A DNA stretch of 12,744 nucleotides from Candidatus Omnitrophota bacterium (GTDB taxonomy: Bacteria > Omnitrophota > Gorgyraeia > DTHP01): positions 1 through 12,744 of the forward strand of contig JAMWCG010000008.1 in the NCBI GenBank assembly GCA_023818555.1, read 5' to 3'. The notes under the pieces are model-generated. The model did not search any database, had not been told where the DNA came from, and worked only from the letters and a program-made list of their open reading frames with translations. This document shows positions 1,120 through 6,214 of the stretch, piece by piece; within the stretch, counting starts at the first letter, position 1; each line of letters begins with the position of its first letter. The position numbers were made by a program, and so were the translations under genes.

Positions 1120-2388
1120 CTAAGTTCCTGCTTCCCAAGAGGAGAGATATTTCTTCTGTTCTAAGGTGAGACGGTCTATGGCGATACCTAAACTTTTCAA
1201 TTTAAATGAAGCTACACGAGTATCAATCTCAGAAGGGACGGGATAAACTTTCTTTTCCAATTTTCTATAGTTTCGGACAATATACTCTACAGAGAGAGCC
1301 TGGTTGGCAAAACTCATATCCATCACCTGGGCAGGATGACCTTCGGCAGAAACTAAATTGATTAATCTTCCTTCACCTAAGAGATAAATCTTCTTTCCAT
1401 TTTTCAAAATAAATTCCTCTACAAAATCTCTCATTCTTCTCTTTTCTCTACTCATCTTTTCTAAGGAAGGTATATCTATCTCTACATTAAAATGCCCTGC
1501 ATTGGCTAAGATTGCTCCATCTTTCATGAGAATAAAATGTTCTTTTCTTAAAACATTAATGTTTCCGGTTACGGTAACAAAAATGTCTCCTATTTTTACT
1601 GCCTCTTTTAAGGGCATCACTACATATCCATCTAAAGATGCTTCTAAGGCTCTCAAAGGATTAGTTTCACAGATGATTACCTTTGCTCCCATCCCTTTAG
1701 CGCGCATCGCCACTCCTTTACCACACCATCCATAGCCACAGATAACAAAATTTGTTCCCGCAATTAAGCGGTTAGTTGCCCGGATTATGCCATCAAGCGT
1801 AGACTGCCCTGTCCCATAGCGGTTATCAAAGAGATGTTTAGTCTGCGCATCGTTTACCGCAATGATGGGATATTTCAACTTCCCTTCTCTTTCCAATGCC
1901 CTCAGTCTAATTACTCCTGTGGTGGTCTCTTCCGTTCCTCCCCAGGGTAAACCAAAGTTCTGATGTTTTGCGATTCCGATGTTCTGGTGAATTGTAGAAA
2001 CCAGGTCTGCTCCATCATCCATGGTAATCTGCGGTTTTATGGAAAGGCAGGATTTTATATGCCGATAATAAGTTTTCCTATCCTCTCCTTTGATAGCAAA
2101 AACAGAAATCCCTAAATGTTTTACCAGGCTTGCTGCCACATCGTCCTGAGTAGATAAAGGATTAGAAGCACATAAAGCTATTTCTGCCCCTCCTTTTTTC
2201 AAAACCTCCATCAAAACCGCAGTCTCTGTGGTCACATGCAAACAGGCAGAGATTTTTATTCCTTTAAGAGGTTTTTCTTTAGTAAAACGCTCTCCAATTA
2301 AGTTCATTACCTGCATATTATTCTTTGCCCACTCAATACGGAGTATTCCTTTTTTTGCCAAATTTATATCTTTAACTTCGTAAGCCAT
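1120..2388 (-). CDS. ahcY: Adenosylhomocysteinase (S-adenosyl-L-homocysteine hydrolase)
   Basis: Cytosolic NAD-dependent enzyme that splits S-adenosylhomocysteine into adenosine and homocysteine, relieving product inhibition of methyltransferases. Visible hallmarks are the substrate-binding segment [10 protein letters not shown] (50-59), DDGAD (124-128), GGTEETTTG (150-158), [18 protein letters not shown] (179-196) with the catalytic Lys184 and Asp188 equivalents, the Rossmann NAD motif GYGWCG (218-223), and [16 protein letters not shown] near the C-terminus. At 422 residues it is the shorter form typical of thermophiles and archaea. It ends [11 protein letters not shown] and lacks the K-x-x-x-Y tail that reaches the neighbouring subunit's NAD in eukaryotic-type enzymes. 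It is the last gene of the minus-strand unit, 36 bases after the restriction endonuclease. Only a weak purine-rich stretch (AAAAGA) precedes the ATG. Confidence 0.96.
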
Positions 2389-2424
2389 ATAATCTTTTGT
2401 ATTAGGTGATGCGGTAAGTAATTA

Positions 2425-3009
2425 TTACAATATTTCTCCATAATCTACCTCGATCCCATCATCAATTTTTCTATAATAAATGACCTTAGCATCTATATGT
2501 TCTGGCAATGCAGCCTTTACTTCGTATGTATGAGGCTTTATTGATACGGGAAAGCTTCCAATGTAGCCATCTATTCCTTTTGACTCTTCATCAGTTTCAG
2601 CAAACCGGTAATCAACTCCTTTAATCTCTGCACCTTTTTTAAGTATTGCCTCCTGAAACCTTAGCCCAGCAAAAGTTTTCACGATTACCAAATCCTTTAC
2701 CCATTGTTCAACAGTATCTTTGTCAATCTTGTTTATAGCGTTTTTCAGCTCTTTCAATTTCTGGAGTATTTTCTCTGTAGCATTTTTGATTGCATCTGGC
2801 TTTTTCTTTAAATACCACTCTTCCCATTCAGATAATGTTTTGCCTTCAAATTGCTGGATAAGTTCGCTCATTTGACCCACAACTTTTGGGCGTGTTCCCT
2901 GGGCATATTGGTTTGCTAAATTGATGAGTGGCGCTACATACTTGGGAAATTCTGGAGTCTCTATGTCTAAGTATTTTCTAATTTCTTCAATGGTTATTTT
3001 TACTTTCAT
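2425..3009 (-). CDS. Type II restriction endonuclease, MjaI family
   Basis: Probable restriction enzyme of the R-M pair with the gene upstream. The 194-residue sequence resembles the MjaI family, whose founding member from Methanocaldococcus jannaschii recognises CTAG. The clearest similarity is in PLINLANQYAQGTRPKVVGQ (27-46) and in the C-terminal block ESKGIDGYIG...VSIK. Asp147 followed by Ser156-Ile157-Lys158 could be a PD-(D/E)xK-type centre (D...xIK), with Glu120 as a further candidate; this is my reading, not shown by experiment. A lysine-rich helical, possibly coiled segment spans about 74-105. The ATG lies one base after the methyltransferase stop, with AAAGAG about eight bases upstream, so translation is likely coupled and follows the protective methylase. 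The frame is intact. CTAG as the actual target is inferred from family membership and the scarcity of CTAG in the window. Confidence 0.82.
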   Translation of the reverse strand: MKVKITIEEIRKYLDIETPEFPKYVAPLINLANQYAQGTRPKVVGQMSELIQQFEGKTLSEWEEWYLKKKPDAIKNATEKILQKLKELKNAINKIDKDTVEQWVKDLVIVKTFAGLRFQEAILKKGAEIKGVDYRFAETDEESKGIDGYIGSFPVSIKPHTYEVKAALPEHIDAKVIYYRKIDDGIEVDYGEIL

Positions 3010-3010
3010 G

Positions 3011-4312
3011 CTAAGACTCTTTGATTAGTACGTCTCTTAGGTTCAAAAACTTTGTTTTATACTTATATTCAAAAGTCGTATCCACATCAACAAGACCATT
3101 TTTAATCAAATGAGCATTCAGGAATGTATTATTCCACAAATAGAGATAGCAAAGTAAGTTTTTCTGTTCATCATATTTTATATTGTCAAACTTCATAAAT
3201 ACCTTCTGTCCCTTTGTTTTCTCTCTTAAAAAGTGGATAGCCTCTCCATTTTTTTCCGGTCTCTCCTTTACACCAATTAACCTTACCTGCAATCCATTAT
3301 TCAGAATCAAAATCCTCGGTGAAATTATCTCTTTTACTGTATAATAAGTTTCTTTTTCATAATAGGAATTGTTTATTTTTGAACCAAACTGCAATTTCCT
3401 GGGGTCAATTTTTTTATCAAACTTAATAGGATCCTTGAAAATATAAGGCAATTTTTCAATTTCTTTCTTGAAATCGATTTTAACTTCCTTTTGTTTAATT
3501 ATTTCAAAAGTTGCATCCTGAAAAATTGTCTTTTGGTTCAAACCAAGTTTTTCCTTTATGATCGGTAAAAAATCTTCATTTATTTCGTAGCCGATAGAAT
3601 TTCTCCCTAATTTTCTGGCTGCTAAAGATGTTGTCCCACTCCCAAAAAACGGGTCAAGGACAGTATCGCCGATAAAACTAAACATCTTAATAAGTCGCTT
3701 TGGTAATTCTTCAGGAAACATTGCAAGGTGCTTATCTTGTCTCTCTCCTGGAAAGTTCCAGTGCCCAGCAAAATATTGATTCCACTCTTCATCTGTCAAT
3801 TTTGATTTTTCTTTTATTTCTTTATTTACTTTTGGAGGATTGCCGTACTTCTTAAAAATCAATATGAATTCATAATCCAATTTAAGAATCCCGCTTCTTG
3901 GGTAAGGATAAGAACCCATTACTGTTGCTCCGCCAGTTGTATGACAGGTAGTAACTTTCTGCCAGATAATCGCACCCATATAATCAAATCCTGCGCTCTC
4001 GCAAAATTTGATGATTTCTGTTCTTATCGGAATAACTTTATATCTTCCATAATAAACCGAACGCGCAAACTGGTCTCCGATGTTAATACAAAGCCTGCAA
4101 CCTTTATGCAAAACTCTATGGCATTCATTCCAGACAAGATTAAGATTATTAATATACTCCTCGTATGTGTCATTAAAACCTATCTGTTCTCCATTACCGT
4201 AATCTTTTAACTGCCAGTAAGGTGGAGAAGTAATGATAAGATGGACAGATTCATCCTGAATTTCCTTCATCCATCTTGAATCCCCAATGATTATTTTATG
4301 CCATGTTTTCAT
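3011..4312 (-). CDS. DNA methyltransferase (probable N4-cytosine, beta class) fused to a SNase-like domain
   Basis: Probable modification enzyme of the R-M pair, transferring a methyl group from SAM to DNA. The catalytic motif SPPYW (29-33, preceded by IIT) is typical of N4-cytosine enzymes. The SAM-binding motif [10 protein letters not shown] (220-228) comes after it, the order of beta-class methyltransferases. The methylase core ends near residue 260. A lysine-rich linker follows, and about 320-433 resembles a staphylococcal nuclease/thermonuclease domain: [11 protein letters not shown] (343-353), [14 protein letters not shown] (379-392) and [16 protein letters not shown] (395-410). The Arg35 and Glu43 equivalents of SNase seem retained (Arg344, Glu353), but the Asp40 and Arg87 equivalents appear to be Lys and Asn, so the domain is probably not an active nuclease. 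Its ATG overlaps the metK stop (ATGA). The C-terminal half is strikingly AT-rich: 48 G+C in the 180 bases at 3361-3540. Confidence 0.9.
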
Positions 4313-5469
4313 ATGTTCTTCTGAATCTCTCTTACCTTATCCAATCTCTCCCAACTGAACTCAGGCTCATTTCTACCAAAGTGTCCATAACAGGCAGTTT
4401 TTAAATAAATCGGCCTTAAGAGATTGAGCATCTGAATTATTCCCCGAGGAGTCAAAGCAAAAATTTTTTTGATAATTTTTATAATTCTCTCCTCAGATAC
4501 TTTCCCTGTTCCATAGGTATCTACATAAATCGCTAATGGCTCTGCTCTCCCAATCACATAGGCAAGCTGCACACAACACTTTTCTGCCACACCTGCAGAA
4601 ACCAAATTTTTGGCAATGTATCTTGCCATATAACTGGCAGAGCGGTCAACTTTTGTGGGGTCTTTCCCCGAGAAAGCCCCTCCTCCGTGGGAGATAAGTC
4701 CTCCATAAGTATCCACCATAATTTTTCTTCCCGTCATACCTGTATCCGATTGCGGACCACCAATCACAAACTTTCCTGTCTCATTAACATAAAATTTTGT
4801 TTTCTTATCTACCCAATTCTGCAAAACGGGTAAAGCCACGGTTCTGATAATCTCTTCCCTTGCCTCCCGGGTAATCTTTTGCTTTGTCTTATCCAAGATT
4901 TCTGCGGTATGCTGACAGGCTAAAACTACCGAATCCACACGCACAGGTTTACCATCACTATATTCCACAGTTACCTGAGATTTTCCATCCGGTCCTAAAT
5001 AAGCCAATATCTTATTTTTCCTTACTTCTGCCATGCGTTTTACTAACCCATGGGCTAAAATAATTGGCATGGGCATAAGCTCATCTGTCTCTTTACAGGC
5101 ATAACCTACCATAATCCCCTGGTCTCCTGCTCCTCCACGATTTACTCCCTGCGCAATGTCCGGAGACTGATTATGTATAGCATTTAGGATGGAACAAGTT
5201 TCATAATCAAGTCCATATTGGGGGTCAGTATAACCAATATCCTTAAGCAGATTTCTCACCAGATTGTGAATATCCACATATCCGGAAGTAGTAATCTCAC
5301 CACCCACCACAATCAAACCCATGGTCACATAGGTCTCACAAGCAACCCGGCCATTTTTATCCTGTCTTAAGACTTCATCAAGAACTGCATCAGAAATCTG
5401 GTCGCAGAGTTTGTCCGGATGTCCTTCAGCAACTGATTCCGAAGTAATAAGATATCTTCTCTTCCCCAT
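4309..5469 (-). CDS. metK: S-adenosylmethionine synthetase (methionine adenosyltransferase)
   Basis: Cytosolic enzyme that makes S-adenosylmethionine from methionine and ATP. The 386-residue protein has the ATP/Mg signature [17 protein letters not shown] (12-28), the PPi-binding motif GAGDQG (113-118) and the phosphate loop [17 protein letters not shown] (262-278), plus [13 protein letters not shown] (237-249). The frame stays open upstream to 5568, but I place the start at the ATG at 5469. It gives the normal family N-terminus [13 protein letters not shown] and has a strong Shine-Dalgarno AAAGGAG five bases upstream; the longer reading overlaps the preceding gene by 98 bases. It follows that gene's stop by one base. 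Its own stop overlaps the DNA methyltransferase start in ATGA, which implies translational coupling. There is no leader long enough for a SAM riboswitch. Confidence 0.97.
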
Positions 5470-5470
5470 C

Positions 5471-6214
5471 TTATCTCCTTTCAGCAAAATAAGCTTTTGC
5501 TTCTTCATAGGACTGCATATCTCCAATATCAAACCATTTCCCGGTAAATTTATAGCCCATAACCTCAATTTTATTTGCTAATAAATATTCTATAAAATGG
5601 CCCAGGGCATCGCCTGAATTGGCCTGGCTTAAATATTCATTTATTAAATTTAATGCCCTCTGGGGGATAAAATATACTCCGATACCAATGAGGGAAGAGA
5701 ATGGTTTCTTCGGTTTCTCTACAAATTTAGTAATAAGACTCTGGGAATTAATTTCTACTACCCCGAATTTCTTTACCCTGCGCAGGTCTTTTAAATCATA
5801 GATCCCTATACTTATACAGGATTTATTTGAGGAAGTTTCTACAAACCCTTCCAGTCCAAAGTCAAAGAGATTATCACCTGCAATAATCAAAACATCGGTA
5901 TCTATATTGTCCTTCTCAATTGCAAATCTTAAATCCCCCAGAGCTCCTAAACGGTCCTTTTCAGAGTTGGTCAGGTCATTAACTAATCTTATCCTATCCT
6001 GGAAATTAAATTCTTTCAGCCATCCTTCAAAAAATAGAAAAAACTTATTGTTAGTTACCAAAATAATTTCTTCAATCTCCTTTATACGGCTTAATTTCTC
6101 AAGAATAAATTCAAGCACAGGTTTTTTATTAATTTTAAGCAGGGCTTTGGGATAATTTGTCGTAAGGGGATAAAGCCTCGTGGCATAACCTGCTACCAGA
6201 ATTATTGCCTTCAT
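5471..6214 (-). CDS. Sugar-1-phosphate nucleotidyltransferase (RmlA/GlmU-N type)
   Basis: Probably joins an NTP to a sugar-1-phosphate, giving an NDP-sugar and pyrophosphate, in the cytosol. The nucleotide-binding signature is at the N-terminus: [18 protein letters not shown] (1-18) with Lys23 in NYPKALL. AGDN (112-115) contains the metal-binding Asp114, EKP (166-168) is the sugar-binding element, and GKWFDIGD (225-232) contains the second conserved aspartate. At 247 residues it holds only the nucleotidyltransferase domain, with no left-handed beta-helix acyltransferase. The sugar and base cannot be read from sequence; glucose or mannose is plausible because the preceding gene is a glucose-/mannose-phosphate isomerase, two bases away. 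RAGxxTRL is replaced by GYATRL, common in short archaeal and bacterial paralogues. The ribosome site is weak (TAGAG abutting the ATG), so expression likely depends on coupling. Confidence 0.9.
5475..5481 (-). promoter_or_regulatory. Shine-Dalgarno of metK
   Basis: On the minus strand AAAGGAG lies five bases before the ATG at 5469, inside the end of the nucleotidyltransferase gene. It is the strongest ribosome site in the window and decides the metK start against the longer in-frame reading from 5568. Confidence 0.85.

Follow-up and report, generated by a model that had tools for sequence, protein, structure and literature searches.

A restriction–modification pair nested between metK and ahcY in an Omnitrophota genome, and an unrelated pair at the same junction of a congener

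We analysed a stretch of 12,744 nucleotides (the window) from a Candidatus Omnitrophota bacterium, located on contig JAMWCG010000008.1 (C223 of the genome designated here as G000, a metagenome-assembled genome of 231 contigs that is 82% complete). On its minus strand, a string of genes runs in the order yvcK, GH57, HPr, ptsI, pgi/pmi, nucleotidyltransferase, metK, methyltransferase, endonuclease and ahcY, adjacent genes being spaced by −4 to 36 nt. A restriction–modification (R-M) pair is nested in this string, between the genes for S-adenosylmethionine (SAM) synthetase and S-adenosylhomocysteine (SAH) hydrolase (Table 1). The order of the last four genes, as given in a preliminary description of this DNA, is borne out by the open reading frames (ORFs) and the family matches, and the two tight junctions that it reported, the ATGA shared by metK and the methyltransferase (4309–4312) and the single base (position 3010) between the methylase stop and the nuclease start, are present in the sequence.

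Table 1. Features of the metK–ahcY region (positions in the window, unless a locus is named)
Feature	Position	Strand	Basis
metK, S-adenosylmethionine synthetase	4309..5469	-	PF00438/PF02772/PF02773, TIGR01034 567.5 bits
ATGA, metK stop overlapping methyltransferase start (4 nt)	4309..4312	-	sequence
Type II DNA methyltransferase, N6/N4 type, 433 aa	3011..4312	-	PF01555 E 2.3e-46, residues 23-254
SNase-like C-terminal domain of methyltransferase, residues 321-433	3014..3352	-	PF00565 E 2.4e-5, residues 356-421
MjaI-family Type II restriction endonuclease, 194 aa	2425..3009	-	PF09568 RE_MjaI E 1.1e-69
Mobile cassette (methyltransferase + endonuclease)	2425..4312	-	nucleotide match to G162 copy
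Spacer endonuclease-ahcY, 36 nt	2389..2424	-	sequence
ahcY, S-adenosylhomocysteine hydrolase	1120..2388	-	TIGR00936 632.7 bits
Nucleotidyltransferase gene of the same string, separated from the metK start by one base	5471..6214	-	PF00483 E 1.7e-37
70-aa helix-turn-helix genes (G155, G024)	L205:9106-9318, L089:7029-7241		HTH_3

Both R-M proteins are covered over nearly their full length by the Type II models of PADLOC, MTase_II PDLC03259 for the methylase (E 7.5e-198, residues 3–424) and REase_II PDLC03519 for the endonuclease (E 1.1e-63). The endonuclease covers positions 2–164 of the 164 of the PF09568 profile and is thus a full-length member of the MjaI type, and the methylase covers positions 1–221 of the 221 of PF01555. 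The TSPPYW and DPFxGSGTT motifs, which we take to be the SAM-binding/catalytic motifs of the methylase, do not vary among 19 aligned sequences, the window's included, as would be expected of an intact enzyme. As judged from its sequence, the methylase is of a known type, since PF01555, a C-terminal SNase domain and the PADLOC Type II models all match; the order of its motifs, with SPPY, suggests an m4C (N4-methylcytosine) methylase. Like the MjaI-type Type II R-M systems, the pair combines a PF09568 endonuclease with an adjoining N6/N4-type methylase; the sole difference is its location inside metK–ahcY, the SNase-like tail being frequent among the relatives listed. It is a real and well-formed R-M pair of a known kind, a complete and probably active Type II system in which the methylase precedes the nuclease.

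The tail of the methylase resembles staphylococcal nuclease (root-mean-square deviation of 2.2 over 120 columns, TM-score by target of 0.75, about 20% identity). The structure model was used for this C-terminal part only, where the residue blocks in 321–430 have a predicted local distance difference test score (pLDDT) of 74–94; the rest is poor and the whole-chain mean pLDDT is 53.6. Among the listed relatives with such a fusion, two are named thermonuclease family protein. The tail may be a DNA-binding module rather than an active nuclease, because N is the consensus residue of the family at the position that we presume to be that of the catalytic arginine. Sequence searches of the PDB gave no useful hit for either the endonuclease or the SNase-like part.

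Gene order in relatives identifies metK and ahcY as an old neighbour pair. Among 165 distinct genomes of the class, they are adjacent in 141 (gap of at most 452 bp), interrupted by R-M genes in two and apart or unresolved in 22. Within a set of 59 relatives including the window's genome they are direct neighbours in 54, where a median of 51 bp (range 8–178 bp) separates the ends of the two matches; they lie on separate contigs in three (G006, G023 and G040) and have R-M genes between them in two. They also adjoin in 60 of the 71 genomes of family f3, where the largest gap is 452 bp (G385), and in 29 of the 37 of family f42; in the remaining 11 and eight genomes, respectively, a search at E <= 1e-12 missed at least one of the two genes or placed them on different contigs. 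Of the 143 genomes in which the two genes could be placed as neighbours, only two, both of the window's genus, have a gap larger than 452 bp, and since their cassettes are unrelated (see below), the R-M genes are not conserved with metK–ahcY as members of a SAM-cycle operon would be. In 80 metK loci from several phyla of GTDB, ahcY lies at most 233 bp downstream in 33 and at most 149 bp upstream in 13; the gap is larger in three (L147, L168 and L170), in which inspection by eye of the first 120 residues of the translations revealed no methylase-like ORF, and ahcY is not in the locus in 31. The metK genes of two further genomes of the class, G015 (L094:3178-5682) and G012 (L095:3661-6924), are interrupted by inteins, with Intein_splicing and LAGLIDADG domains inside the ORF. 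One genome has a reported open reading frame of 24,777 aa around its metK–ahcY match (G205:C6:262401-263312), possibly a giant neighbouring gene or a calling artefact.

The second interrupted junction is that of G001, which with G000 makes up the members of the window's genus that were searched. It holds an unrelated R-M pair, a D12 methylase with a nuclease of the HinP1I/MspI fold, again with the methylase first and with an ATGA overlap between metK and this unrelated methylase. Thus, the ATGA form of the junction recurs in the sister species, but the R-M genes found at two of the 143 metK–ahcY intervals are not the same. In the relative G002 the junction is empty and AGGAG precedes ahcY, a motif that is missing from the spacer upstream of ahcY in the window. 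With conserved metK and ahcY bordering different whole-gene cassettes across G000, G001 and G002, the region has, in this respect, the layout of what is called a minimal mobile element. What remains surprising is that one junction is used by two unrelated R-M pairs, a point that rests on two genomes. The fragmentation of G000 might raise the suspicion of an assembly or binning artefact; this is extremely improbable, as a single contig spans both junctions of the insert, the same architecture recurs in the congener with another cassette, and two contigs, the longer of 57,432 bases, are listed for a database entry that matches the window's endonuclease without any difference.

Further features of R-M genes were noticed in the two genomes. 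The nuclease of the D12 pair (G001, L086:15019-15723) is about 25 residues short compared with most of its relatives, and a similar tail was seen by eye downstream in another frame. On the same contig of G001 (C110), roughly 13 kb separate the metK slot from a second R-M pair, a TdeIII-type endonuclease with an N6/N4 methylase (L086:292-2291). In the window's genome, a methylase fragment stands at a contig end (G000:C109, L097:1-381) and could belong to a further R-M system or be an orphan methylase.

The window's type of cassette is also found elsewhere. A search of 384 genomes of the class with the methylase gave 13 matches over its full length (at least 59% identity, window included); 20 genomes match it at E <= 1e-50, seven of which (G063, G131, G259, G138, G263, G036 and G038) were set aside because the match is N-terminal only or cut. 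All 12 other full-length copies lie at loci unrelated to metK–ahcY, and the idea that these R-M genes are immobile is thus not supported. A single-genome insertion accordingly describes the window's cassette, found at metK–ahcY in one genome only, but not the slot, which another pair occupies in the sister species. Six copies lie 47–131 nt behind a tRNA gene (G249, G073, G346, G076, G066 and G017), downstream of tRNA-Ser or tRNA-Gln and in the same orientation (L199, L200, L201, L203, L197 and L088); the three behind tRNA-Ser seem to have a short stretch after the tRNA in common. The copy of G162 overlaps the end of a flavoprotein ORF that we read as CoaBC-like, and that of G300 sits between hisD and hisB. 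The latter genes are 15–106 bp apart in all seven relatives of G300 (three of which are congeners with HisD 96–97% identical), and the insertion in G300 is therefore recent. As the same type of cassette also occurs in the histidine operon, it is not only with SAM-cycle genes that it nests in a housekeeping unit: the placement of an R-M pair inside a housekeeping gene string stands as described previously, whereas its supposed link to SAM does not follow from it. In G155 and G024, which carry copies diverged from the window's, the methylase is preceded by a gene for a helix-turn-helix protein of 70 aa, which may be a C-type controller (HTH_3, E 4.6e-17 and 5.9e-17); this gene overlaps the methylase start by 4 nt, and in the window metK takes its place. 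The copies of G304 and G253 have at least 250 nt upstream without a neighbouring gene of 60 aa.

The G162 copy, taken as the nearest sequenced one, is 88% identical to the window's in both proteins although its host is from another family. In this one pair of copies compared, nucleotide similarity (82%) sets in 2 nt into the start codon of the methylase and stops with the final base of the nuclease stop codon, so that the two share just the ORFs and neither a leader nor a trailer. The ratio of nonsynonymous to synonymous substitution rates (dN/dS) between the two is 0.048 and 0.051, with dS > 1, and both R-M genes are thus under purifying selection. In a large database the methylase has at least 7,999 relatives at E <= 1e-60 and the nuclease 4,673 at E <= 1e-3, and the best 120 listed for each (excluding the entry of the window's nuclease) are 81–90% identical and bear names from unrelated phyla, while a phylum-wide search with the methylase yielded one extra match outside the class (residues 1–261). 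The insert consists of the two R-M genes only, with no integrase or transposase, and so does not qualify as an integrative or transposable element.

Tight packing is ordinary in both genomes of the genus. In a sample of ATG-started ORFs of at least 100 aa, drawn for G000 from its contigs other than the window, codirectional pairs within −4 to +5 nt make up 10/43 in G000 and 38/111 in the congener, and pairs overlapping by exactly 4 nt 3/43 and 10/111, so that the ATGA overlap alone is no sign of a special link. Judged by spacing only, metK, the R-M genes and ahcY would be co-transcribed. Between positions 900 and 6400, neither promoter-like matches (11 versus a shuffle mean of 16.7) nor terminator-like matches (4 versus a shuffle mean of 4.0) are in excess.

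Most likely, the methylase–nuclease cassette was acquired horizontally and inserted into the ancestral metK–ahcY junction, a slot that is reused in the manner of a minimal mobile element and that implies no specific SAM circuit. The window's cassette would have no promoter of its own and be read from the metK message, the translation of the methylase being coupled to the stop of metK, which stands where the diverged copies have their putative controller gene. The gene order would allow the methylase to be made before the nuclease. Loss of the cassette might then expose unmethylated sites to restriction and have polar effects on ahcY, which, having lost its ribosome-binding motif, may now depend for its translation on the context of the insert. 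A position in or right behind housekeeping units could thus provide steady expression and retention and make deletion risky, with no need for a SAM link, and the metK–ahcY slot would act as a place between conserved genes where whole-gene cassettes can be exchanged.

Several points weigh against this explanation. We infer both the co-transcription and the absence of a promoter in the window's cassette, and the cassette type is not always promoterless, since G155 and G024 have their own helix-turn-helix gene and G304 and G253 are open upstream. The short flanks compared on either side of the insert in G000 and G001 have no exact 8-mer in common, and the reuse of the slot is known from two species. 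Searches of 72,556 plasmid and 50,697 phage records gave no match at E <= 1e-60, and viral matches are limited to two contigs (64–68%); carriage by a plasmid or phage was rejected on these grounds. MjaI cuts CTAG, and the observed/expected ratio of CTAG is 0.09 in G000 and G001 alike (0.22 in G002). Because CTAG is equally rare in G001, which has neither a match to the window's methylase at E <= 1e-50 nor an RE_MjaI match, its avoidance gives no support for activity and was dropped as evidence of it.

The arrangement had previously been proposed to tie methylation to the supply of SAM, selection having placed the R-M genes where co-expression with metK and ahcY would provide the methylase with SAM and remove the SAH. 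The gene order and overlap in the window speak for this, as does the presence of two unrelated pairs at the same junction in two species of the genus, each methylase-first with an ATGA. Yet the other copies lie behind tRNA genes, in the his operon, after the flavoprotein ORF and elsewhere, the junction is enlarged in this genus only among the 143 class genomes compared, and the TdeIII-type pair of G001 has no metK/ahcY-like neighbours; moreover, a single SAM pool serves all of the SAM-dependent enzymes of a cell. A specific coupling of the R-M genes to SAM supply is thus not supported and we regard it as unlikely; it was set aside as the principal explanation in view of the his-operon and tRNA-flanked copies. 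A related possibility, to which we give a similarly low probability, is that metK–ahcY is a preferred R-M dock in this genus, where SAM-cycle co-expression would ease establishment and unrelated systems would be retained in succession; if so, host DNA would be protected sooner, the methylase being made from the same message as the enzymes that make its cofactor and remove its inhibitor. We find it conceivable, though rather doubtful, that two independent chance insertions hit a permissive and well-expressed junction, without exchange by homologous recombination and without positional benefit. This is a narrower form of the cassette-insertion explanation and overlaps it, so that the probabilities of the readings do not sum to one. 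The cassettes being unrelated, at least two insertions must have occurred at the junction in the gene pool of the genus, and nucleotide identity between G000 and G001 per 150 nt is fairly even along both metK (0.76–0.83) and ahcY (0.73–0.82); however, the same junction and the same form of overlap twice in two genomes would be improbable for random sites among about 1,000 genes.

R-M systems have reportedly been described by Furuta et al. in 2010 as small mobile units. In the minimal mobile elements of Neisseria, varying whole-gene cassettes, often R-M systems, lie between two conserved genes and are incorporated by homologous recombination (PMC3898611). The slot described here resembles them in its conserved flanks, in the unrelated R-M cassettes of sister genomes and in the absence of mobility genes; it differs in that the Neisseria elements are exchanged by homologous recombination between strains, whereas the present slot is known from two genomes and between species. 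The even divergence of the metK and ahcY flanks, in these two genomes only, neither shows nor excludes entry by this route. A survey of R-M mobility suggests small integration hotspots (PMC4176335), with which the window shares a small R-M-only insert without mobile-element genes, but here the boundaries of the insert coincide exactly with those of the ORFs, and it sits within a string of housekeeping genes. A literature search joining metK, ahcY and restriction–modification found no paper, and the accessible parts of PMC12707154, PMC3388099 and PMC3874152 contain nothing on an R-M pair nested in metK–ahcY. The locus offers a clean natural case, in an uncultured phylum, of a compact R-M cassette that appears to borrow its expression from housekeeping units (metK, hisD, tRNA genes), and the reuse of one junction by unrelated pairs provides a testable point on cassette entry and retention. 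It also cautions against taking gene order in a single genome as functional coupling.

As to the surroundings, the window has no Rfam match at the gathering score, and an LptF/LptG-family gene lies tail to tail with ahcY. The nearest named relatives of the window's metK are from Candidatus Omnitrophota (up to 73% identity), and the nucleotidyltransferase gene upstream of it also adjoins metK, by sequence, in G001 and G002.

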